Below, in pieces: positions 27,199 through 48,950 of a DNA stretch of 54,140 nt; the stretch's first letter is position 1; each line of letters starts with the position of its first letter. A program made the position numbers and the translations under genes. The stretch is from a virus: positions 1 to 54,140 of IMG/VR virus record IMGVR_UViG_3300017917_003175; one strand, written 5' to 3'. Below the pieces are notes generated by a model. That model worked only from the letters and a program-made list of their open reading frames with translations. It was not told where the DNA came from and did no database searches.

Positions 27199-29895
27199 TT
27201 AAATTCTTCCTACGGCAATTTCAATTACACCTTGAATGCCATCAAAATTTTCTAATGCTTTACCTATGATTGTTCCTATCTGTGGGGTAGTAGTAGGTCT
27301 AGCATAACCTCCACCTCCACTTATTAACATATCACCTTTACTGATTTTACCACGTACTTTAACAGGAGTTCTACCTTGTAGTGCTAGGGCTACAACATAT
27401 TTTCCTGGACATGACGTATTCATAACATATGCAGGATTAGTACTAACAACTCCCGCAACTTTTTTAGAACCATCTTCTGCCATTGTAACTTCTGCATTAC
27501 CACCAAATTCTAAAACAGTACCAGGTCCATAATTTTCATCTGATGAATAATATTCTGCTAAGTCAGCGTATGTTGCCTGTAGCCTTGATCCTGCGCTTAG
27601 TGACCAATTACCAGTAATTGTTCCTAAGTTAGTATTTGCGCCTGTCGTTAGTGTTAAGTTATTGCCTGTAATTATTTGAGCATTTGCAAATGTTAAATTT
27701 GTAAAAGATGTACTAACACTTGTAACATTTGGCTGTGCAGCAGTAGTTAATGTTCCTGTTAACAGGCTAGCACCTATTGTACCTGAATTAGCATATACAT
27801 TTCCTGCTACTATATTACCTGTAACTGTTATTAATCCAGCTGTACCTAAATTACCTACATTAGCATTACCAGTAGCATTTAATGTACCTGAAACATTTAC
27901 GCCTGTTCCTGTTATGACTAAGATGTTAGCATTACCAATTGCACTTATATTAACATTTCCATTTGCTGCTGGTATATTAACATTACTATTTCCATTTGCA
28001 TGTGGTCCTAATAAATTTCCACCAGTTATGTTTCCTGTAGCAATGATAAGCCCAGCTGTACCAATATTACCAATATTAGCATTACCTGTTACACTTAATA
28101 CGCCACCTGTAACTAAGTTACCACCTGTGATATTACCAGTAGCAGTAATAAGTCCTGCTGTACCAATATTACCAATATTAGCATTACCAGTAACACTTAA
28201 TACGCCACCTGTGACTAAATTACCTCCAGTTATGTTACCTGTTGCAGTTATTAATCCAGCTGTGACTAAGTTACCACCTTGTATATTGCCTGTAGCAGTA
28301 ATTAATCCAGCCGTACCAATATTACCAATATTTGCATTACCAGTAACGCTAAGTACACCACCTGTGACTAAGTTAGCCCCTCGTATATTACCTGTAGCAG
28401 TAATTAATCCTGCTGTTCCTATGTTACCTATATTTGCATTACCACTTACTGTTAGTGTTGCACTATTTGCAACACCTGCTGTATTGAAATTACCTGCATT
28501 AACATTGCCAGTTGCTGTTATTAAACCACTTGTACCTAAATTACCTACATTAGCATTACCATTAGCATTTAAAAGTGTAGTTGATAAGTTTCCTGTCGCT
28601 GCATTAAAAGAAATATTTGAGTTTGATCCTAATGCATAATTTGCAGTGGTATTTGCATTTACAAAAACTGGATAAAAAGTACCTGTGGTCTGTGTTGTAA
28701 CTACTTCAAAATCACTGACATTAGAATAACTTACATTTAAATTTGAAACTCTTGTTGTAGAAGTAACTGTTAATGGAGCTGTACCTGTTGAAACATTTGA
28801 AGTAAATCTACTAGCAACAACAAGTGTTGTACTATTTAAATTTGAAACATTTGCATTTCCTGCTAATGATAAAATATTATTAGCAAAATCAAATGTTAAA
28901 TTTGCAGAACCATCTAATAAGCTACTGTTATTAAATTGAATTGTGGTATTTGATCCACCTGCACTTCCTGATCCCCCTGAACCAGCGACTGCTGCAATAA
29001 TTCTTCCGCCCGTTACATATACATTTGCTGTTACACTACCATTAGTAGTTAATTGAACAACATTACTAACATTACCATCACCACTTGTACTAACTCTTAT
29101 TGTAGTACCAGTTGGTTTATCATAAACAAAATATGCTGTTTCTTCTGAAAGACCTGTTCCTGTCATTGTACCAACAAATTCTATTGGATCATTATTACTA
29201 AAAGCACTACTGCTTCCCACAGTCACTCTATCAGTAGTTGAATTTGTAGCAGAAACACTAGTATAAGGAAAAGCACCATATCCTGATGAATTCACTGGAG
29301 TTGTAAGTGCCAAATCCGTATAAAGTGCAAAAGAATTTGAACTTATTACGTTTGCATAATAACTATTTCCATTTAATTGTGTCATTCCAGTTACGTTGGT
29401 TATTGTAACTTCTTGCGCTTCAGTAAAAAAATTGTCTTCTGTTGTTGTAATTACACAAGGATTGGCTTGTGTAGCATTTTTAATAAAAGCAATAATAGTG
29501 GATTTTGGTGTCCAACTTAAGTTACCTGTACCATCTGTTTCTAAAACATAACCAATTGCGCCGCCAGTTATCCTTACATTACTTACACTTCCTAAATCTA
29601 TTAATCCACCTGCATTACCACCTCTATTGACCCAGTTAGTGCCATCATATGTTAAAACTTGACCATCTTCAATTGTAACAGAATCTATATCCAAATTTCC
29701 AACTGCACCCAAAACTTGATCAAAACTTATATTGCTGTAACTAGTTAAAACCTCAATGTTTTCATTTGGGCTTTCTTTGCCTATAAAAAGCCTTTTTGCA
29801 TCAGTTGCCCAACCAAATTCAGCTTCGTCTAACTGGGGTAAATCAACAATGTTTCCTGATCGTTGTTGAAGTTTTGAGATTTGTATAATAGCCAT
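27199..29895 (-). CDS. Repeat-rich tail fibre protein with C-terminal chaperone-like domain
   Basis: An 898-aa fibre. Residues 1-45 (QRSGNIVDLPQLDEAEFGWA, KRLFIGKE) match the attachment motif found at the N-terminus of fibres such as Mtd of phage BPP-1. Residues 160-290 hold two beta modules. Residues about 450-690 are 34-residue GNANIGNIGTAGLITATGN repeats shared with the gene at 1-3034. The C-terminus (ADLAEYYSSDENYGPGTVLE, KVAGVVSTNPAYVMN) resembles the peptidase_G2 or intramolecular-chaperone-type tips of phage fibres, which may self-cleave; no catalytic residues can be assigned. Late promoter at 29923. Confidence 0.8.
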   Translation of the reverse strand: MAIIQISKLQQRSGNIVDLPQLDEAEFGWATDAKRLFIGKESPNENIEVLTSYSNISFDQVLGAVGNLDIDSVTIEDGQVLTYDGTNWVNRGGNAGGLIDLGSVSNVRITGGAIGYVLETDGTGNLSWTPKSTIIAFIKNATQANPCVITTTEDNFFTEAQEVTITNVTGMTQLNGNSYYANVISSNSFALYTDLALTTPVNSSGYGAFPYTSVSATNSTTDRVTVGSSSAFSNNDPIEFVGTMTGTGLSEETAYFVYDKPTGTTIRVSTSGDGNVSNVVQLTTNGSVTANVYVTGGRIIAAVAGSGGSGSAGGSNTTIQFNNSSLLDGSANLTFDFANNILSLAGNANVSNLNSTTLVVASRFTSNVSTGTAPLTVTSTTRVSNLNVSYSNVSDFEVVTTQTTGTFYPVFVNANTTANYALGSNSNISFNAATGNLSTTLLNANGNANVGNLGTSGLITATGNVNAGNFNTAGVANSATLTVSGNANIGNIGTAGLITATGNIRGANLVTGGVLSVTGNANIGNIGTAGLITATGNIQGGNLVTAGLITATGNITGGNLVTGGVLSVTGNANIGNIGTAGLITATGNITGGNLVTGGVLSVTGNANIGNIGTAGLIIATGNITGGNLLGPHANGNSNVNIPAANGNVNISAIGNANILVITGTGVNVSGTLNATGNANVGNLGTAGLITVTGNIVAGNVYANSGTIGASLLTGTLTTAAQPNVTSVSTSFTNLTFANAQIITGNNLTLTTGANTNLGTITGNWSLSAGSRLQATYADLAEYYSSDENYGPGTVLEFGGNAEVTMAEDGSKKVAGVVSTNPAYVMNTSCPGKYVVALALQGRTPVKVRGKISKGDMLISGGGGYARPTTTPQIGTIIGKALENFDGIQGVIEIAVGRI
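27840..28500 (-). repeat. Tandem ~102-bp coding repeats in fibre gene 2
   Basis: Units recur about every 100 bases with the same plus-strand text as in fibre gene 1 (for example accaatattaccaatatta and gcattaccagtaacactta). The two loci are about 27 kb apart, in the same orientation, and share long near-identical stretches. Confidence 0.82.
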
Positions 29896-31381: not shown

Positions 31382-31702
31382 TTATACCCTAAAACTTTCA
31401 CCACAGCCACATCTATCTTTTTCTAAAGGATTTATAAATTCAAACCCTTCATTTAATCCTTTTTTCTGATAGTCAATAGTAATGTCGCTTAAATAAACTA
31501 AAGATTTTTTATCAACATATATGTTAAAATCATTTTTATTATAAACAACATCAGTTATTGTAGGGTTATCAACATACTCAAGTTGATAAGCTAAACCTGA
31601 ACATCCAGTGGTTTTTACGCCAATTCTAATTCCTAAACCTTTCCCTCGTTTATGTAAATTGTTTTTTATCTTATGATAAGCAGGTTCAGTTAAATTAAGC
31701 AT
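31382..31702 (-). CDS. A-type iron-sulfur carrier (IscA/ErpA/HesB family)
   Basis: The 106-aa product has all three cluster-binding cysteines of the family: Cys34 in TGCSGLAYQLEY, and Cys98 and Cys100 in the C-terminal CGCGESF. Length is normal (about 105-110 aa). These proteins pass [2Fe-2S] or [4Fe-4S] clusters to apo-enzymes in the cytoplasm. Phages of marine bacteria carry such genes as auxiliary genes. A perfect TATAAATA late promoter (31800) lies 97 bases upstream. In addition ACTAAATA ends six bases before the ATG, which could make a second, leaderless start. Confidence 0.9.
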   Translation of the reverse strand: MLNLTEPAYHKIKNNLHKRGKGLGIRIGVKTTGCSGLAYQLEYVDNPTITDVVYNKNDFNIYVDKKSLVYLSDITIDYQKKGLNEGFEFINPLEKDRCGCGESFRV

Positions 31703-35893: not shown

Positions 35894-36578
35894 GTAAATT
35901 ATACTTTTGGACAAGTTCGTTTCTGTTTTCAATATAAGTTTCAAGTGCTGTATAACATGCTTTTGGTATATTTTCAATTCCTGTAATATTTTGAAGTATG
36001 GTAAAAAGTTTATACTTCCCATTTTCTTTTTCAAATATACTTTGATAATTAATTTCTATAACATTATTGAAATTTGACTTTTTTTCTATAAACCAATTTA
36101 ATGAATTTTTTTCTTTAAATTTATTATTAATCTTTACAAACAATTCTAATGCTTTTTTGCTAACTACAATTTCAGAATTTTCAGAATTTTTGTACAAACC
36201 ATTAAAAGTTATTTCTTTAACATCATCTATCGTCAATCTTAATAAAATAATAGTGCTTTTAGCAACGTCTTCATTAATGTTTTCAGAAGAATTAAATGGA
36301 AAACAATGTGTGCATATTAAAAAAAGTCTGTTTAATTTATATTCAGGAAGTATATAATGTTTATGATTTATATTATCATGCCAAATCAATCGCTCATAAA
36401 TATTAAAGTTTGGGTCATACATTCCATGACCTACGTAATATGTATTTTCATGGGCGGAATTATTTTTACTTATAATGATTGGGTCCTCACTCTGATTAAT
36501 TAATCTATGTACCAAGACGGCTAAAAATCTTCCAGAACTTCCAGGATAAAAACTTATAATAAATTTATTGTTATTCAT
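35889..36578 (-). CDS. Sulfotransferase-like P-loop protein
   Basis: The 229-aa product begins with FIISFYPGSSGRFLAVLVHR. The strand followed by YPGSSGR (residues 11-17) resembles the 5'-phosphosulfate loop of sulfotransferases (YPKSGTT type). The later region (STIILLRLTIDDVKEITF) and an FINKACYTALE-like helical C-terminus are compatible with a P-loop fold, but I do not see the 3'-phosphate motif. It overlaps the helicase start region by 4 bases. An alternative is an unrelated phage P-loop protein; function is unproven. Confidence 0.4.
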   Translation of the reverse strand: MNNNKFIISFYPGSSGRFLAVLVHRLINQSEDPIIISKNNSAHENTYYVGHGMYDPNFNIYERLIWHDNINHKHYILPEYKLNRLFLICTHCFPFNSSENINEDVAKSTIILLRLTIDDVKEITFNGLYKNSENSEIVVSKKALELFVKINNKFKEKNSLNWFIEKKSNFNNVIEINYQSIFEKENGKYKLFTILQNITGIENIPKACYTALETYIENRNELVQKYNLR

Positions 36579-38017
36579 TTTTTATTAGTAAGCGTATTAA
36601 GCAAACTTTTTAATCTAGTTGATTGTATATCCGCTGTTATTTTTTTATTTATAGGATCAACTACTTCATGTACCTTATCATTTAAAGTTAAATTTGGTTT
36701 AATTTGTTTCATAAGTTCGTTCGCTGATGGTTGCTGAACATATTTAGCTTTATCTTCTAAATCAGGATCGGTTATGCGTAATGTTTCTACGTTGAATTCA
36801 AGTTCTATTTTTTGTCCTACCCCACTACTACTACGTGTTTTCATTAACTGTAATTGATATTGTCCTCGTTCCCGCATATGTCGACTAGTAAATATGCCGA
36901 ACACGTTATCTGCTGTATTAATTTTACTAATACCACCACTAATATGACTATGATCAAATTCAATTTCATCCACTGCCGTTCTATTCAATTGACTAGCAGT
37001 GACTAACAATACATTTAACTCTTTTGCTAAGTTTCTTAATTCTTCACTAACATATTTGTCTTTTACGAATAAATCACTAGGACTTACTTTTGCTCCTACA
37101 GGCATTAATAAATCTAAGTAATCAATACAAAGAAAATCTACTTTAACTCCTGTTTGTATTTCAAGTTCTTTTACATAAGCACGTACATCATTTACATTAC
37201 TTTGTGCAGGGAGATATTTAATTCTAAACTTTCCTGTTTTTTTAGATAACATTTTAATTTTCATTTCAACTGTATCTAATTCTTTAAAAATTTCACGGCT
37301 TGGTGTATCAGTCATCATAGCATCAATTCTATGGGCACATAAGCCTTCATTTAATTCAAGTGTAATATATGCTCCATTAATACCTGCAAGTAACCAATTA
37401 ACTGATAAATTTTGCATGATAAGTGATTTTCCCGAACCAGATCCACCTGCAAATATTTGTAATTCTCCTCTATTAAATCCTCCATATAACTTATTGTCAA
37501 GTGTAGGCCATCCTGAACTTATCTGCCCATTATTTGATTTAAGACCTAAAAGTCTTCCTCTAGGATCTGCAAAGTAATCAGTACCCATGTCACGTTGTAA
37601 ACTAATTTGCACTGCATTTTTAATTAGATTTTCAATTAGACTCCAATTTTTAGTTTCTTTGTTGTCTAATAAATCAACTGACTTATAAATTGCTCTTGTT
37701 ATTTCTTCCTGTCTTGTAAATATTTCAAATTCATGCAAAAACCATTCATAATGACCATCTGATAATTCTGTAATTGTTTCAACTTCTATACCCGTAGTTG
37801 CTTTTATCTGTAAAGGATTAGGCATTGCATTGTAGTCTTTGCAATGATTAATTATAAATTCAACTGCAGGTCTTAAACTTTTATCAAAGTTATTTACATT
37901 CATAATGTTCATAACTCTAGTATAAAGCTCAACATTTGTTATCATCATACGCAAAAATAACATTTGTACTTCAACTTTATTAAGTTCGTCTTTAATGTTA
38001 TTATAATTGTCTTTCAA
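36575..38017 (-). CDS. 41: Replicative DNA helicase gp41 (DnaB family)
   Basis: A 480-aa RecA-fold helicase, close to T4 gp41 (475 aa). Walker A is GGSGSGKS near residue 190, Walker B FLCIDYLDLL near residue 295, and motif H4/arginine-finger region is QLMKTRSSSG near 410. The N-terminal domain is helical, as in DnaB. It unwinds DNA 5' to 3' on the lagging strand with the gp61 primase. It overlaps the primase gene by 17 bases and so is translationally coupled to it. Confidence 0.93.
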   Translation of the reverse strand: MKDNYNNIKDELNKVEVQMLFLRMMITNVELYTRVMNIMNVNNFDKSLRPAVEFIINHCKDYNAMPNPLQIKATTGIEVETITELSDGHYEWFLHEFEIFTRQEEITRAIYKSVDLLDNKETKNWSLIENLIKNAVQISLQRDMGTDYFADPRGRLLGLKSNNGQISSGWPTLDNKLYGGFNRGELQIFAGGSGSGKSLIMQNLSVNWLLAGINGAYITLELNEGLCAHRIDAMMTDTPSREIFKELDTVEMKIKMLSKKTGKFRIKYLPAQSNVNDVRAYVKELEIQTGVKVDFLCIDYLDLLMPVGAKVSPSDLFVKDKYVSEELRNLAKELNVLLVTASQLNRTAVDEIEFDHSHISGGISKINTADNVFGIFTSRHMRERGQYQLQLMKTRSSSGVGQKIELEFNVETLRITDPDLEDKAKYVQQPSANELMKQIKPNLTLNDKVHEVVDPINKKITADIQSTRLKSLLNTLTNKK

Positions 38018-38975
38018 TTCGTCTCCTTTGTAATTCTACCTTTAATTTATTATTTGAAGCATTATTTAATATACTCAAAAATGTAGGAACTTTTCCATAT
38101 TTTACAACAGCATCATTAACATCTTTAATATTTTTATCCCACTTAGGTATACTAACATAATATCCTAATTCCAATGCTTTATCTATTGTAGCTAGTCCTG
38201 CTATATCCTGATCAGGTACAAATATAATCGGTCTGTTTAATTCTTCTAGTAACATTGACTGGTTTTCATTAATAGTATTATGTGTTAATGCACATCCATT
38301 TATTGATAATGCGTCAAATATTCCTTCTACTAATATACAAACCTCATACTCTGGTTTTTGAAAATCAATACCAAATACATAACCAGGTTGATTTTCATTT
38401 ATAAATTTAGGCTTTCTATCATCCAAATATCTACTTGTTCTACCAACAATTTTATTTTTGTAAGTGAATGGGATTATAATACGATTAGATTGACGACCTT
38501 CTAGATTTGGAGTTACTAAAAAAGGATAATCATTGTAATTTATCCCACGTTTAATTAGATACTCGATAAATTTTCTATGTTGTTTGTTATTACTGTCAAT
38601 TAGATCACCTTCATCTAATATGAATTCATTAAATTTAATTTTGTTTTTTTGTTTTTTAATTTTTACCAAATTTAATAAATCTTTATGTTGTGCGCTTTCC
38701 AAACTATATTTGTTAATTTGTGCCTCTTCTACACCGCACCAACTAAGTAATTTTTTTGTATTTTTAGTTAAGCTTTTACCTAACATAAACCCACATTTGA
38801 AACCACAATTAAAACAATGGTAAGACCAGTTCTCACCATCTTTTTTGATACCACCGCGTAATCTTGTATCAGGTTTATGTCCTCTATTTCCACAACAAAT
38901 AGCATTAAAGCTATACCAACCACTTTGTGTTAGTTTCTTTTTGCCTGCTATTAATGTAAGGATATCAATCATCAT
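38001..38975 (-). CDS. 61: DNA primase gp61
   Basis: The 324-aa product (T4 gp61 is 342) has an N-terminal zinc-type region with CCGNRGH near residue 27 and YHCFNCGFKCGF near residue 54. A TOPRIM-type core follows: ILVEGIFDALS (acidic Glu) near 213 and IIFVPDQDIAGL (Asp-x-Asp) near 250. It makes RNA primers for lagging-strand synthesis with gp41. The start is ATG at 38975 or 38972. TATAAT lies three bases before the first ATG, so transcription would begin at about 38972, giving a leaderless message. Confidence 0.9.
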   Translation of the reverse strand: MMIDILTLIAGKKKLTQSGWYSFNAICCGNRGHKPDTRLRGGIKKDGENWSYHCFNCGFKCGFMLGKSLTKNTKKLLSWCGVEEAQINKYSLESAQHKDLLNLVKIKKQKNKIKFNEFILDEGDLIDSNNKQHRKFIEYLIKRGINYNDYPFLVTPNLEGRQSNRIIIPFTYKNKIVGRTSRYLDDRKPKFINENQPGYVFGIDFQKPEYEVCILVEGIFDALSINGCALTHNTINENQSMLLEELNRPIIFVPDQDIAGLATIDKALELGYYVSIPKWDKNIKDVNDAVVKYGKVPTFLSILNNASNNKLKVELQRRRIERQL

Positions 38976-39889: not shown

Positions 39890-40270
39890 ATGGTTAAAAA
39901 CGACTTTTTTAAAAAACTTTCAGAACTACATCCATTTATAACAGTTTGTTCCTATGCAAATCAAGATTATGTAGGAATCATTCAAAACAGAGATGATATG
40001 GTTACGACAATATACGATTATGGTAGTATAATAGATCCATTAACTAAATCAAAATTTTTAGAATTAGGGGATGTTTGGTGGTGGGAAAGTAATCGCTTAA
40101 TACCAATCAACTTATTTTTAAAAGACGAATGGAGTATATTTAAACCATATCTTAAAACATTTATGAATAAAAGTTTGCAGATTGTACATGGCCCTATATG
40201 TAGTATGAATGAATTGCATAAAAGACGTAGTAAAAGACGTAGCATTACATTAGTAAAAAGAATTATTTAA
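39890..40270 (+). CDS. Conserved phage protein of unknown function (126 aa)
   Basis: Start placed at ATG 39890 (MVKNDFFKKLSE), where the conserved sequence begins; the frame is open further upstream but that part looks non-coding. The blocks DYVGIIQNRDDMVTTIYDYG, LELGDVWWWESNRLIPINLF and the basic end KRRSKRRSITLVKR are conserved in aquatic T4-like phages as I recall them. The basic tail suggests nucleic-acid binding. Function unknown. It is an isolated plus-strand gene overlapping the deformylase end by 8 bases. Confidence 0.6.
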   Translation: MVKNDFFKKLSELHPFITVCSYANQDYVGIIQNRDDMVTTIYDYGSIIDPLTKSKFLELGDVWWWESNRLIPINLFLKDEWSIFKPYLKTFMNKSLQIVHGPICSMNELHKRRSKRRSITLVKRII

Positions 40271-40739
40271 GTTTTTTTCTACGTTTTTTTGCTAAATTTA
40301 AACTAACTCTACTAATCTTAGTATCAAAGCATATTCCATCTAAATGTTCTAATTCATGTTGATAAACTCTTGCCATTAAACCATTCAAGGTAACTTCCTT
40401 AACTGTTCCATCAACTTGATAAAATCTAACATCTATTTCTGACGCACGATTAACATTTAACCATAAATTTGGAAAACTTAAACAACCTTCTTGGTCTTTA
40501 TGTAGGCCTCTATAGTTAACTATAACTGGATTAATACAAGCAACTAATAAATCTTTATTTCCCATTATAAAAATTCTACTATTAATTCCTACCTGTGGTA
40601 GTGCTAATCCTATACCATTATTTTCAAACATGACTTTTGTCATTTTTTCTATGATTGGCATAGGATCACCATCTATGTCAAAGTCATAATCTATACACTT
40701 TGTTCTAAGTATTTCACTGTTTTCGTTAACTAATTCCAT
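40263..40739 (-). CDS. def: Peptide deformylase
   Basis: All three family motifs are present in 158 aa: GIGLALPQ at 42-49 (motif I), EGCLSFP at 84-90 with metal-binding Cys86 (motif II), and QHELEH at 127-132 with the HExxH metal site (motif III). The enzyme removes N-terminal formyl groups from new proteins. Phage copies are known in marine T4-like phages and are thought to sustain translation of phage or organelle-like targets. Basic C-terminus KKRRKKLK. It overlaps the DnaE-like mini-protein by 14 bases, in the exonuclease operon. Confidence 0.93.
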   Translation of the reverse strand: MELVNENSEILRTKCIDYDFDIDGDPMPIIEKMTKVMFENNGIGLALPQVGINSRIFIMGNKDLLVACINPVIVNYRGLHKDQEGCLSFPNLWLNVNRASEIDVRFYQVDGTVKEVTLNGLMARVYQHELEHLDGICFDTKISRVSLNLAKKRRKKLK

Positions 40740-41307
40740 TATTTTCTTCTAATAAATTCATATGTACTACAACTAAATGTGCATAGGCAATAGCATGACT
40801 TTTCTTAAATACATATTCGTCTTGGTTCTTATCCCATATTGTTTTAGCAATTTCTGAATAAGATTGACCTAACAAGTGTCTTTTACCAGGACGTATTACT
40901 GCTAAAAACATTGCTAGTCTTGTTATAGAATTTACTGGTTCAGGCATTCTATTTAGAATATCATATTGATTATTTAAATGTATTAATTTTTCAACAAATT
41001 TTCTATGTTTTAAATTATCCCAATTTGGTTCTTTCATGAGTTTTATTAAGTGATCATTATCTTTTACAAGTCCATAAACATGAACATTTAAGAAGTCTAA
41101 TTTAAAATAACCTCTATCTTCAGCAGATTTATAATCTAATGCTGATAAGTCATTTATTGGATCATATGGAATATTTGTTACATAAATACCAGTAGGATGT
41201 TTTTTAATTGTTTTATCATTTCTAATGCTAGCAGGTATGTGATTTATTATTTTTAATATGTCATCACGGTTAGCATAATCAATATCAATGTCACCTTTAA
41301 AATTCAT
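40726..41307 (-). CDS. DnaE-like mini-protein
   Basis: A 193-aa protein that carries, in order, short blocks resembling conserved motifs of bacterial DNA polymerase III alpha (DnaE): DIDIDYANRDDI at 6-17 (compare PDFDIDF-x-x-x-RD); HPTGIYV at 37-43 (KHAGGVVI); SAEDRGYFKLDFLNV at 61-75 (V-x-x-G-L-x-KxDFLGL); LAMFLAVIRPGKR near 131-143 (ALVALFRPGP); and FKKSHAIAYAHLVV near 167-180 (FNKSHAAAYA). The rest of the 1,100-aa polymerase is absent. Homology is an inference from these blocks; whether Asp8 and Asp10 act as metal ligands is unknown. It is coupled to the exonuclease and deformylase genes. Confidence 0.55.
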   Translation of the reverse strand: MNFKGDIDIDYANRDDILKIINHIPASIRNDKTIKKHPTGIYVTNIPYDPINDLSALDYKSAEDRGYFKLDFLNVHVYGLVKDNDHLIKLMKEPNWDNLKHRKFVEKLIHLNNQYDILNRMPEPVNSITRLAMFLAVIRPGKRHLLGQSYSEIAKTIWDKNQDEYVFKKSHAIAYAHLVVVHMNLLEENNGIS

Positions 41308-41849
41308 ATCAATTTTAATTTTTTATATGCCTGTTGTACAACTATAACTTGTCTCTCTGCATCTTCAATAGCCTTATGTGTTGTTTTATAAGAACCACTG
41401 TTTAATTTTACATTTGCTATTTCATACAATGTTCTAGTATCACGTACAGTATAGAATGGCCATGGAATAGGATTAGGATATTCTGTAAGTGTTTGTCGCA
41501 TACCAGTTTCACAAGCCACTATATCAAATGCTGCTCCATTGCTCCATACAGCACGACGATTCCAACAAAATTTATACAATGTCTCCATACAATGTCTAAA
41601 TGATGTACGCCCATTATCTCCTAAAGCTTCTTCAAGTGCTGCTGTACTTTGTTCACTCCACCATCTTAATGTATCTTCATTAATAATTCTATGATATATT
41701 TCTGTTTGGTCTTCTATAGTAGGACGTAGTTCTAACTTTTCTACGATTCCATTTTCTCTAGGGTTAAACGACACTGCACCGATTGTAAGAATGGTGCAAA
41801 ATGGACTTGTATCAAGTGTTTCTAAATCTATCATTACATCTAGTGTCAT
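41304..41849 (-). CDS. DEDDh 3'-5' exonuclease (DexA-like)
   Basis: The 181-aa product has the Exo I motif MIDLETLDT (Asp7, Glu9), an Exo II region SNGAAFDIVACE and an Exo III region THKAIEDAERQ with the His/Asp pair of the DEDDh class. The length and fold type fit T4 DexA or RNase T-type exonucleases, which degrade single-stranded DNA or RNA from the 3' end. It overlaps the next gene by 4 bases (ATGA-type). Proofreading or host-DNA degradation is likely. Confidence 0.85.
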   Translation of the reverse strand: MTLDVMIDLETLDTSPFCTILTIGAVSFNPRENGIVEKLELRPTIEDQTEIYHRIINEDTLRWWSEQSTAALEEALGDNGRTSFRHCMETLYKFCWNRRAVWSNGAAFDIVACETGMRQTLTEYPNPIPWPFYTVRDTRTLYEIANVKLNSGSYKTTHKAIEDAERQVIVVQQAYKKLKLI

Positions 41850-41880: not shown

Positions 41881-42570
41881 TTAATTATTGCTATCCCAAA
41901 TATTGTCTAATACTTTTACCTCACTTATTATATTACTATCTAAGTAATTAAGCAACAGTGCAGGGCGAATCATATCAGCATCATTTGGCATACTACTATG
42001 CAATAGTCTGCAATTATACAATAATATATCCCCTTTATTAAGTTTAGGGCGTATACAATGTTGCATAAAATAGTTATCATAATATCCTTGATAACATAGT
42101 TTTATACTAAAGTCTTTCAATTGACTACTAGGAACTAAGCCTGTAGCACCATTATTTTCATCAAGATCAAAAAATGGAATAATACATTGTATACCTAATA
42201 ACTCTTTATTATAATTATACTTTTTAAAACGATGGGGTGTGTCAATATGTGGATTGACCCAAGTGCTTTTTGGTTTTAAAAAAACAATATCACTTGCATA
42301 AAGTAAAGCACTTTTTAAATATTTAAAAACTTCGTATTCAACTAGTTTATTAATTTGCTGTACTTCATACCAATCTGTTACAAGTTGACTCCACCAAACG
42401 CTTATATCTTGTAAATCCTTGATATTTTCTTTTTCAGCATATTGTTTAAGTGAACTACTAGCACGTACAGGATATGTTGTATCAAGCTTATTATATAGGT
42501 CGTCCAATATATTATAAGGAATTAAATTATTGACAATTACATATCCAGACCCTTCTACTAATTCATTCAT
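41881..42570 (-). CDS. Fe(II)/2-oxoglutarate dioxygenase, PhyH-like
   Basis: A 229-aa double-stranded beta-helix oxygenase. The metal triad candidates are the H-x-D in NPHIDTPHRF near residues 107-109 and the distal His in LLHSSMPNDADMIRP near 191, where the Arg 11-12 residues later would bind 2-oxoglutarate. The sequence GIQCIIPFFDLDENNGATG is typical of phytanoyl-CoA-type hydroxylases. The substrate is unknown. It lies in a run of tightly packed early genes. Two other oxygenases of a different subtype lie at 45212 and 45839. Confidence 0.8.
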   Translation of the reverse strand: MNELVEGSGYVIVNNLIPYNILDDLYNKLDTTYPVRASSSLKQYAEKENIKDLQDISVWWSQLVTDWYEVQQINKLVEYEVFKYLKSALLYASDIVFLKPKSTWVNPHIDTPHRFKKYNYNKELLGIQCIIPFFDLDENNGATGLVPSSQLKDFSIKLCYQGYYDNYFMQHCIRPKLNKGDILLYNCRLLHSSMPNDADMIRPALLLNYLDSNIISEVKVLDNIWDSNN

Positions 42571-45211: not shown

Positions 45212-45820
45212 TTAAATTATTAAATGTTTATACCTATCTAAAAAAGTGTTATAAGTAAGTATACCTTGTATATCAGTATCCAAAACTAATGAAAATAATA
45301 ATCTTGTGTTTTCAATATTTTCAACACTATGGTAATATTGAACATTATAGGCATGCCAAGTTTTTATTGGTATACAGGTTTTAAAATTTATTTCTAAATC
45401 CTCGTATCTTGCGTCTTGTGCTTTTGATAAATCTAAATTAGTTCTTCCAGTTTTATAGATGACTGTTTCAACATTACATCCTCCTGATTTCATTAAATAA
45501 TTTATAGCTATTAACCTTCTACGATCACAGTGTGGGGGAATACATACAGTACCATTACCATATACATTTTTCAGTTTTCCTATTATTGCAGTAAAATTAC
45601 AATTAAAATAAGATGAATAAATTTCGTTCAATTCCAATTGCATATCATTAGGTAAAATAGCATTAACTCTACCATAAACATGGCTGCCAACTCGGATAGA
45701 ATTTCCATACCATGACTGTACTCCATTCATACCTATTAGGTCATCAGGAACTTCTTCACTTATTAATAATGCTTGATTAAAAATATGTTCAGGTAATTGT
45801 GGAATATTCAAATATACCAT
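45212..45820 (-). CDS. Fe(II)/2-oxoglutarate oxygenase-like protein, tandem copy A
   Basis: The 202-aa product has H97-x-D99 in IPPHCDRRRL, a distal H164 in QYYHSVENI and R173 nine residues later, the metal triad and 2-oxoglutarate Arg pattern of the cupin oxygenases. The intervening INYLMKSGGCNVETVIY and TWHAYN form the jelly-roll strands. Substrate unknown. The neighbour at 45839 is a paralogue, separated by 18 bases. It has no clear own promoter and probably uses that of the UvsW operon. Confidence 0.7.
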   Translation of the reverse strand: MVYLNIPQLPEHIFNQALLISEEVPDDLIGMNGVQSWYGNSIRVGSHVYGRVNAILPNDMQLELNEIYSSYFNCNFTAIIGKLKNVYGNGTVCIPPHCDRRRLIAINYLMKSGGCNVETVIYKTGRTNLDLSKAQDARYEDLEINFKTCIPIKTWHAYNVQYYHSVENIENTRLLFSLVLDTDIQGILTYNTFLDRYKHLII

Positions 45821-45838: not shown

Positions 45839-46483
45839 TTATAATAAGGTGATTATATTTTTTATAAAATGATTATAGGTGACAACTTTTTCTTTATCAC
45901 TCAATATAAGAAAAAACACATATCGGTCACTTTGTAAGTTTTCTACACTATGAAATTCATCAGCATTAAAGCAATACCATTTATGAATCGGAACACATTC
46001 TCTAACATCTACTATAAGATTTTCATAATAAATTATTTTGTCATTATAGGGATTATTTATATTTTTTTTTGTAATTGTATTGTTACTTATTTTTTTACTA
46101 TAGGTAACCGTTTCTACATGATCTCCACCTGGAATAATTAAAAAATTTATACCTAAACATCTATTTTTGTCCCTATGTGGAGGAAATGAACAGTTTATAC
46201 TATGAATGTTTGAAAATTTTCTAATACAAAAATTAATATCCTCAGAAAAATATTCCCTATATAAATTTTTTAATTGTTTTCTTGTATTATAACTAAATAC
46301 ATTACCTAATGCTTCATATTTACCAATTTTTTGGTTATTGTTAAATTTCAAGGCTTTCGTCATATTTAAGAAATCATCATATTGTTTATTATGTATGAGA
46401 TTTTTATGTTTTTTAGCAGCAAATAAGCATTCTTGGATTGCGTTTTCAGGTAACATTGGAAGATCTAAATAAACTAAACTCAT
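45839..46483 (-). CDS. Fe(II)/2-oxoglutarate oxygenase-like protein, tandem copy B
   Basis: A 214-aa paralogue of copy A: H103-x-D105 in PPHRDKNRCL, distal H178 in DEFHSVENL and R187, with matching GINFLIIPGGDHVETVTY and PIHKWYCFN. Both keep all four key residues, so both may be active, perhaps on different substrates. The start overlaps the UvsW stop as ATGA, so it is coupled to UvsW. Peptide, nucleotide and lipid substrates are all possible. Confidence 0.7.
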   Translation of the reverse strand: MSLVYLDLPMLPENAIQECLFAAKKHKNLIHNKQYDDFLNMTKALKFNNNQKIGKYEALGNVFSYNTRKQLKNLYREYFSEDINFCIRKFSNIHSINCSFPPHRDKNRCLGINFLIIPGGDHVETVTYSKKISNNTITKKNINNPYNDKIIYYENLIVDVRECVPIHKWYCFNADEFHSVENLQSDRYVFFLILSDKEKVVTYNHFIKNIITLL

Positions 46484-47937
46484 AAGTAATTCAACTTTTC
46501 TATTGTAAACGGATACTTAGCTTCATTATAATAAGATTTACGCTGTGTCAAATGACGTTTTGCAAACTTACAATTACTTGTTATATCCCAGATTTGTACG
46601 AAGTTTTTATCTTCTGCTTTTCTAATACCTCTTCCAATACTTTGGATAACTCTAACAAAGCTTTTTCCGGGTTCCAAAAGAACCAAATTAAAAATCCTAG
46701 GAATATTAATACCCACACTGGCCACACCATAAGTCGCCACAATAACCTTGTTATCGCTAGTCGCAATTTCATCGTATTCTTCTTTTCTTTCTGTCAATTT
46801 AGTTTCTCCACTTACGAAAACACTGTTAGGTATTTTTGTTACTAAGTCTTTACCTGCCATTACTCGATCTATAAGAATTAATGTATTCCCTGTCTGTTTT
46901 ATTTTATCAACTAATTGAGCAATAGTATTTATTCTATTTTGATTTTCTAGTAAGTGTTTTAATTCAGTATGATAATTTGTAAACTCTAAATTGTCCTGTA
47001 ATTGTACGATATTAACATGACATTGTGCTAGCACACCTTTGTCTTGCAATTCACTTGCACTAAGCTTACCTATTACATTACCTAATGATACATATAATGC
47101 TTGTGCTTCATATAATGCTTTTGGTATAGTACCAGTAAGTCCCCAACGTATAGGAACTTTACTAAACACTCCTGTTAATAATGTTTTAAGGGCATCAGCT
47201 TTTACCATGTGTACTTCATCAACCATTACACATACAACATCTTCTATGAATTCGTGTATTGTAAACTCAGCGGTACCAGATTGTGTGTCTTTAAGTAGAT
47301 TATTTAAACTTTGCCATGTACATATCGTATGTTGTTTATTAAATTCTTTGCGATCACCAAAATATACACCAACATCAAGTCCTACATTACGATAGTCATC
47401 TTCGGTTTGTGTAACAAGACTTTTATTCGGTACAATAATAATACTACGACCATAATCTTGTACACTATAGCTAAGTGCAGCAGTAGTAATTGTTTTACCT
47501 GCTCCAGTAGCAACTTCTTGTATTGATTGTGGATTAGCTAAAAAGTTATTAATGACCTCAATTTGATAATCACGTAATACGATTGGTTCATTTTCTTTTG
47601 GATGACCTTTTGGCCATTTATACTCTATAAACGTATGTTCGGACACTTTGCATAAGTTGAATTCTTGTGTGTATGCTCGTTGGTCCTCAAGTGTAATATT
47701 ATATCCAGTTTTTTCCAATACAGGAAGTATTTCGGGAAGTAAGTTTATATATGTGCTTCCCCCTAAACTAAAGTAACTTACTTTACCATTCCATCTACCT
47801 AGTCTGACACTTGGACTATATCTAGCTCCAGGCTTTTCATACTCAAACATCTTCATCAATGTTTTTCGTTCAGAAAGTTCTAAGCCTTCAATCTTAACAT
47901 TTACTTCATCTTTAATGACTAGTTTACATTGTCTCAT
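46480..47937 (-). CDS. uvsW: UvsW-type DNA helicase
   Basis: A superfamily 2 helicase of about 485 aa (T4 UvsW is 502). Motif I is VATGAGKT near residue 142, motif II MVDEVHMV (DEVH) near 240, motif III GLTGTIPK, and motif VI QSIGRGIRKAED. The N-terminal RYSPSVRLGRWNGKVSYF is typical of the UvsW substrate-binding domain. It unwinds branched intermediates and R-loops and helps shift T4 replication from origin- to recombination-dependent. An ATG at 47937 is preferred to the TTG at 47943. It is coupled by overlap to the 336-aa gene. Confidence 0.92.
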   Translation of the reverse strand: MRQCKLVIKDEVNVKIEGLELSERKTLMKMFEYEKPGARYSPSVRLGRWNGKVSYFSLGGSTYINLLPEILPVLEKTGYNITLEDQRAYTQEFNLCKVSEHTFIEYKWPKGHPKENEPIVLRDYQIEVINNFLANPQSIQEVATGAGKTITTAALSYSVQDYGRSIIIVPNKSLVTQTEDDYRNVGLDVGVYFGDRKEFNKQHTICTWQSLNNLLKDTQSGTAEFTIHEFIEDVVCVMVDEVHMVKADALKTLLTGVFSKVPIRWGLTGTIPKALYEAQALYVSLGNVIGKLSASELQDKGVLAQCHVNIVQLQDNLEFTNYHTELKHLLENQNRINTIAQLVDKIKQTGNTLILIDRVMAGKDLVTKIPNSVFVSGETKLTERKEEYDEIATSDNKVIVATYGVASVGINIPRIFNLVLLEPGKSFVRVIQSIGRGIRKAEDKNFVQIWDITSNCKFAKRHLTQRKSYYNEAKYPFTIEKLNYL

Positions 47938-47939
47938 AT

Positions 47940-48950
47940 TCAATCTACCGAAAAAATAATCTGTTTTTTAATGTTGTATAAACTTTTTTTCATTGCAGTT
48001 GATTGTGTATGAAATTGTAAAAGTACTGGATAATTATAATTATGTGCTAGAGTAATATCAGAGTACCTATATTCTGATAAAGTTTTAATAGCCACAGAGT
48101 TTTTTTGCAATTCAGTATTTATGATATTTTTTTCAACAACCTTGTAAAAGCTTTTACTGAAAAAAATTACATCACATTTAATTTTAATTAACCAATCAAT
48201 AATTTTATCATAGTTATCAATATGACACTCATAGTTAAATGAATTAGCGAACCTTAATTCTTCATTCAATAAACTTTCGTGAATTTTTATACCATATTCA
48301 CCCAAAGTTTTAGCAGTTAACATGTCAAGTTTTAATTTCAAATTTTTGGTTGCTAAATATAATGGTTGGTTACAAGCAGCAATATAATAATGTGTTCCTG
48401 TTTTATACAGTGTTGGATCGTATGTATAGCTTAATTTATGATTTATGTCGTCTAATAACTTTAAAGATACCTCGCATAACTTTACATCACTGTAAAACTT
48501 TTTTGCAACTGAACATATAAATTTAAATGAGTGGGTACTAAATTCGCTAATATAAAGTTTATTTTCTTTATCCCATATAAAATAATTATGTTTTTGTTTT
48601 CTAAAATATTCAAGGAATTTTTTATTAAAAGGATTTCTAAAAAATATTTTGTTGTCTATTATCTTAATATAGGTCTGCGTAAACTCGTTGCTACTAGGAA
48701 TGATTTGTGTATAAGCAAAGGGTAATTTAATTAAATCCATGTAATTAAGTTGATTTTTATTTAATTGTTTTTTATATTTTTTGATAATAAAGTTTAACAA
48801 GTTTTCTTGATTCTTTGTAAGTTTTTTTGATCCAAAAGTAATAATATAATGTAGGTTTGAAACAAAATGCAAATCAGTTTTAGACAGTCGCATAACACCT
48901 GAGTTCAGGTATATAATTACATTTTCTTTCGTAGTTAATGAATAGTACAT
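47940..48950 (-). CDS. UvsW-coupled protein of unknown function (336 aa)
   Basis: No catalytic motif is visible. The segment IKIIDNKIFFRNPFNKKFLE followed by YFIWDKENKLYISEF resembles the accessory domain that precedes SNF2-type helicase cores, but no helicase motif follows. The C-terminus has alternating strands and helices (IDWLIKIKCDVIFFSKSF). It sits directly before UvsW with a 4-base overlap. The start may be ATG 48950 (leaderless, see promoter) or ATG 48893, which has AGGTG before it. Confidence 0.45.
   Translation of the reverse strand: MYYSLTTKENVIIYLNSGVMRLSKTDLHFVSNLHYIITFGSKKLTKNQENLLNFIIKKYKKQLNKNQLNYMDLIKLPFAYTQIIPSSNEFTQTYIKIIDNKIFFRNPFNKKFLEYFRKQKHNYFIWDKENKLYISEFSTHSFKFICSVAKKFYSDVKLCEVSLKLLDDINHKLSYTYDPTLYKTGTHYYIAACNQPLYLATKNLKLKLDMLTAKTLGEYGIKIHESLLNEELRFANSFNYECHIDNYDKIIDWLIKIKCDVIFFSKSFYKVVEKNIINTELQKNSVAIKTLSEYRYSDITLAHNYNYPVLLQFHTQSTAMKKSLYNIKKQIIFSVD

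Follow-up and report, generated by a model that had tools for sequence, protein, structure and literature searches.

What does a protein of 193 residues do with conserved motif blocks of bacterial DNA polymerase III alpha (Pol III alpha), when polymerases of family C are as a rule very large? The gene, here called mini-DnaE, lies at 40726–41307 on the minus strand of the window, which is the whole 54,140-nucleotide stretch analysed, a 54-kb genome fragment of a large phage. Its reading frame is intact, with an ATG start and 193 codons followed by a stop. The protein matches PHROG 11778 ("DNA polymerase") with an E-value of 1.3e-56, residues 3–189 of 193 aligning with positions 5–194 of the 197 in the profile. 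The gene is a member of this family and an additional, well-preserved example of an arrangement published in 2021, in which the minimal Pol III alpha of group 2.2 jumbo phages is split, its parts being separate proteins encoded by distant genes (Iyer et al., PMC7824862). In that study, the N-terminal part was described as NTP-binding and the C-terminal part as Mg2+- and template-binding, the split enzyme was accompanied by a family B polymerase, one-strand synthesis or repair was suggested as its task, and the minimal Pol III alpha was used in an argument on early polymerase evolution (PMC7824862). We found no functional test of the split Pol III alpha in the literature beyond the Iyer et al., CBB, and Atu_ph07 papers. 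The present analysis adds a residue-level mapping, complementary halves in solved structures, co-occurrence, and selection, and extends the arrangement to a smaller phage and to metagenomic lineages. The genes of the window that bear on the question are as follows.

36575–38017, minus strand: DnaB-like replicative helicase (PF03796), a conserved neighbour
38001–38975, minus strand: DNA primase (phrog_47), a conserved neighbour
39893–40270, plus strand: small conserved opposite-strand gene (phrog_11637), downstream of mini-DnaE in 98 of 101 loci
40263–40739, minus strand: peptide deformylase (PF01327), overlapping the end of mini-DnaE by 14 nt
40726–41307, minus strand: mini-DnaE, the probable C-terminal half (C-half) of a split minimal Pol III alpha (metal-binding palm and trimmed fingers), 193 aa, with D6/D8/D71 equivalent to E. 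coli D401/D403/D555
41304–41849, minus strand: DEDDh 3'-5' exonuclease (PF16473, phrog_255), with an ATGA overlap with the start of mini-DnaE
46480–47943, minus strand: UvsW-like helicase (PF04851, UvsW_N), lying upstream within the conserved replication block

Sequence evidence for family C ancestry

Searched as a single sequence, mini-DnaE returned nothing significant from Pfam or, with phmmer, from the PDB, and it barely reached the generic model TIGR00594 (E = 0.015). By the Pfam and phmmer searches alone, the likeness to DnaE, which an earlier note had read from several short motif blocks in the same order, would have been wrongly refuted. A profile of 23 homologues compared with 177,635 PDB sequences gave seven matches at E < 10, and all seven are Pol III alpha. 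These matches consist of at most four collinear blocks that are individually weak, with a best E-value of 0.045. The blocks in mini-DnaE are confirmed to follow the DnaE order above chance, in agreement with the PHROG assignment and with the fold comparison given below. The proposed check against DnaE models thus gave a weak answer for the single sequence, but one confined to Pol III alpha for the homologue profile against the PDB.

Predicted fold and residue mapping of the C-half

The AlphaFold2 model of mini-DnaE, predicted with alignment rows from the window and IMG/VR, has a pLDDT of 90.5. Its top 14 matches in the PDB are all family C polymerases, with Z-scores of 6.4–9.9 compared with 3.4 for the next unrelated entry, so the suggested superposition on the DnaE palm is borne out. 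In a Foldseek search of viral models, the significant named matches were exclusively full-size phage family C polymerases. Residues 1–193 of the model span E. coli DnaE 397–782, Taq 458–839, and PolC 968–1297; the E. coli range is covered with large deletions in the thumb and fingers, and nothing outside it is covered. The thumb (~E. coli 433–510), full fingers, PHP, clamp-binding, and OB parts have no counterpart in the C-half, as the earlier note had it in describing a protein that lacks most of the polymerase. The GS motif (GRGS; E. coli 361–364) is not in the chain, which begins at the equivalent of E. coli 397.

When the C-half was compared profile to profile with the single E. coli sequence, the RPG block alone aligned, and therefore the residue mapping was taken from a joint alignment, in which the C-half was joined by a stand-in N-terminal half from a relative. 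D6, D8, D10, H37, G40, K69, and D71 correspond to D401, D403, D405, H511, G514, K553, and D555 of E. coli; further along the chain, R139, P140, S170, H171, and Y175 correspond to R639, P640, S759, H760, and Y764. D401, D403, and D555 are the established catalytic aspartates of E. coli DnaE. The chain starts at the palm strand with the catalytic DxD and contains all three of these aspartates, and the predicted structure and the joint alignment together indicate a pol-beta-type palm with DxD and D555-type catalytic residues. K69 and D71 had been expected to align with DnaE residues, and they do; the proposed aspartate pair D8/D10 also falls on DnaE residues, but the catalytic pair D401/D403 is represented by D6/D8, one step off. 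Twelve residues are invariant in two homologue alignments (D6, D8, D10, H37, G40, K69, D71, R139, P140, K142, H171, and Y175), and K142 has P642 as its E. coli counterpart. The invariance of the catalytic aspartates and K69 extends down to homologues of ~33% identity.

The N-terminal half

The CBB paper describes CBB_328, a Pol III alpha protein truncated to 172 aa, which is the N-terminal half (N-half) and belongs to PHROG 11127. The profile of the N-half matches Pol III alpha exclusively in the PDB, aligned to E. coli 322–392, and a profile comparison gave an E-value of 3.6e-6; the first ~78 residues showed no alignment to DnaE. One N-half reading frame with a stop was left out. For the N-half, the model (pLDDT 90.0) matched 16 family C entries at Z-scores of 7.5–12.3, the next match being at 2.3. 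It covers E. coli 278–393 and extends to residue 455 in Taq and 965 in PolC. The C-half begins at E. coli 397–399, Taq 458, and PolC 968, leaving a gap of a few residues between the halves in each structure. Nearly all N-halves end in E-F-L-K/R or a near variant, which places the cut within a shared short linker ahead of the DxD strand. In addition, G-GRGSS is invariant in the N-half homologues.

Co-occurrence and distribution

The C-half is encoded by at least 600 stretches in IMG/VR and was found in 63 phage records, mostly of jumbo phages of the RaK2/CBB/121Q, PA5oct, Atu_ph07, SCTP-2, and XacN1 types. A 141-kb phage of Alishewanella, whose genome is recorded as complete and circular, encodes it as well, and the family is thus not confined to jumbo genomes. 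The N-half was found in 20 of 24 C-half records, the four misses being contigs of 90–201 kb. Both halves are present in all nine isolate genomes searched from C-half loci and in every other searched record of at least 244 kb. In the reverse direction, 11 of 17 N-half records contain the C-half, including every one above 200 kb. A family B polymerase was detected in 18 of 19 relatives' records. By record coordinates, the halves are separated by ~15 kb (XacN1) to more than 200 kb (Phosso).

The C-half of the window shares 32–48% identity with those of the isolates (tblastn) and represents a divergent lineage known from metagenomes. A search for the N-half within the 54-kb window did not find it, and a PF07733 search of the window was empty. 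This is unsurprising, because the N-half of a near relative (G001) is encoded ~39 kb downstream of its C-half, counted in the direction of transcription, near GroES-like and clamp-loader genes, and an equal distance in the window extends to its left edge.

Gene neighbourhood

The order of genes around the C-half is stable, comprising the opposite-strand small gene, a structural gene, the primase, and the DnaB helicase, and the order in the window is that of PA5oct, CBB, RaK2, Atu_ph07, and SCTP-2. The primase is near the C-half in 69 of 71 loci and the DnaB helicase in 67 of 71; in these and the other neighbourhood figures, loci were not dereplicated, and the figures are counts, not independent events. 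Other genes were noted in or near the replication block on the minus strand, namely a PhyH dioxygenase (41881–42570) and two mutually similar proteins (45212–45820 and 45839–46483), the first of which had no match in Pfam.

The coupling to an exonuclease and a deformylase that had been claimed is real in the window, the exonuclease stop and the mini-DnaE start sharing four nucleotides (ATGA, 41304–41307) and the deformylase overlap amounting to 14 nt, but it is unevenly conserved. The deformylase neighbours the C-half in 35 of 101 loci; we rejected it as a partner, and it is probably an incidental neighbour outside the system. The exonuclease is near the C-half in 64 of the 105 loci with enough flank; at least 35 loci have it no more than 40 nt upstream. 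This link recurs in close relatives only. It was not found adjoining the C-half in annotated isolates, and only 8 of 18 records have this DEDDh exonuclease anywhere in the genome. It was accordingly rejected as an obligate partner; it is possibly a proofreading partner in the lineage of the window and not a defining part of the system.

Proposed function and alternative explanations

The C-half is under strong purifying selection, with dN/dS values of 0.05–0.17 among relatives, which are approximate since dS is high in many pairs. The data show that the two halves are closely complementary and are kept together under strong selection. We consider it likely that mini-DnaE encodes the C-half of a split minimal Pol III alpha core, in which two chains rebuild the palm and act as an auxiliary polymerase or nucleotidyltransferase beside the family B replicase. 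The C-half would contribute the strand on which the three Mg2+-binding aspartates lie, together with a shortened finger or template-contact segment, and another protein, whose gene lies elsewhere in related genomes beside the GroES-like and clamp-loader genes, would supply the palm GRGSS motif, which in DnaE holds the nucleotide triphosphate. The two chains would associate into one rebuilt palm, and gap filling, repair, or lagging-strand synthesis are possible tasks of the resulting enzyme. With the thumb, most of the fingers, and the PHP, clamp-binding, and OB parts missing, processive synthesis by the split enzyme alone is unlikely, and we infer that it most plausibly plays an auxiliary part next to the family B replicase of the phage.

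The loss of the thumb and most of the fingers, along with the presence of a complete family B polymerase, would suit a non-catalytic DnaE remnant that binds DNA, the clamp, or the replisome, with the N-half as its structural mate. Such a binding subunit would not require the catalytic aspartates, K69, and the GRGSS of the N-half to stay invariant down to ~33% identity, and we regard it as unlikely. The reduced relic with a new job put forward in the earlier note runs against the same invariant aspartates, the strong purifying selection, and the presence of the missing N-half, encoded by a gene of its own, in every searched relative with a complete or near-complete genome. These observations also speak against its other suggestion, an antagonist of the host polymerase. 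A decoy that takes the place of host Pol III alpha on the host clamp, epsilon, or tau would be expected to mimic the host core structurally, as the C-half does; however, what the C-half lacks includes the very parts with which DnaE binds clamp, tau, and epsilon (PHP and the C-terminal parts), and the gene sits among primase and helicase genes, which makes this explanation very improbable. A decaying relic or chance ORF would account for the very weak single-sequence likeness to generic DnaE models, but is refuted by the dN/dS values and by the number of IMG/VR stretches and phage records that encode the C-half.

The low dN/dS, the invariant catalytic residues, and the invariant GRGSS thus point to two chains forming a catalytically active enzyme more than to a relic, a decoy, or a protein that only binds. 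Another nucleotidyltransferase activity would equally keep the catalytic residues invariant. More tentatively, proteins of ~170 and ~190 aa may assemble, with no intein, into a thumb-less, active polymerase of family C, perhaps the smallest one known, which works beside the family B replicase and is proofread in the lineage of the window by the translationally coupled DEDDh exonuclease. Should a working palm indeed be rebuilt from two small proteins, the pair would define a minimal core for the bacterial replicase and pose a testable question, namely why phages retain a bacterial-type polymerase in addition to a complete family B enzyme.

Comparison with known systems

The window C-half resembles that of the split Pol III alpha of RaK2, CBB, GAP32, Atu_ph07, and PA5oct (PMC7824862) in its family (PHROG 11778, E = 1e-56), size, conserved residues, and neighbours (the opposite-strand hypothetical gene, the structural gene, the primase, and the DnaB helicase), and the two-gene split with a family B polymerase is seen in its relatives. 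Unlike in the jumbo-phage isolates, the exonuclease gene in the window directly overlaps the C-half. The C-half shares with bacterial DnaE and PolC the palm fold, the catalytic aspartates, and the HxxG, RP, and SH..Y motifs in the same order, but it has 193 aa compared with ~1160, and the palm is divided between two genes. In cyanobacteria, an intein-split DnaE yields a family C polymerase from two genes, the split inteins rejoining the chains. In contrast, the phage halves end and start cleanly at the junction and have no room for an intein tail.

Outside this system, several observations were made. A 150,743-bp IMG/VR contig (the record of L080) contains both split halves and, in addition, a 559-aa single-chain PHP-less family C polymerase-like protein (L243:1890–3569) with RGS, DIDLDF, and KIDIL motifs and a fingers match (PF17657, E = 4e-18), so that a single phage carries two types of Pol III alpha. 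In the window, an iron-sulphur cluster biosynthesis protein (PF01521) is encoded at 31382–31702 on the minus strand, and a repeat-rich tail-type protein with GNANIGNIGTAGLITATGNI units at 27199–29895, also on the minus strand. Long plus-strand ORFs opposite the latter and at the left edge (60–2864, PAVPILPILALPV units) resemble mirror frames of repeats of this kind. In Bacteroides phage BS-TP1 (L249, PQ571274.1: 2944–4677 and 1–1701, minus strand), a family C polymerase is broken at the same palm position. Its gp3 runs past FERFLLPER into a tail that is intein (Hint)-like by eye, a Dda-helicase gene comes next, and an unannotated remainder of the polymerase (LPDVDNDF onwards) lies beyond it. 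This break suggests that polymerases are split repeatedly at the palm linker and that breaks of this kind may lead to the split form.
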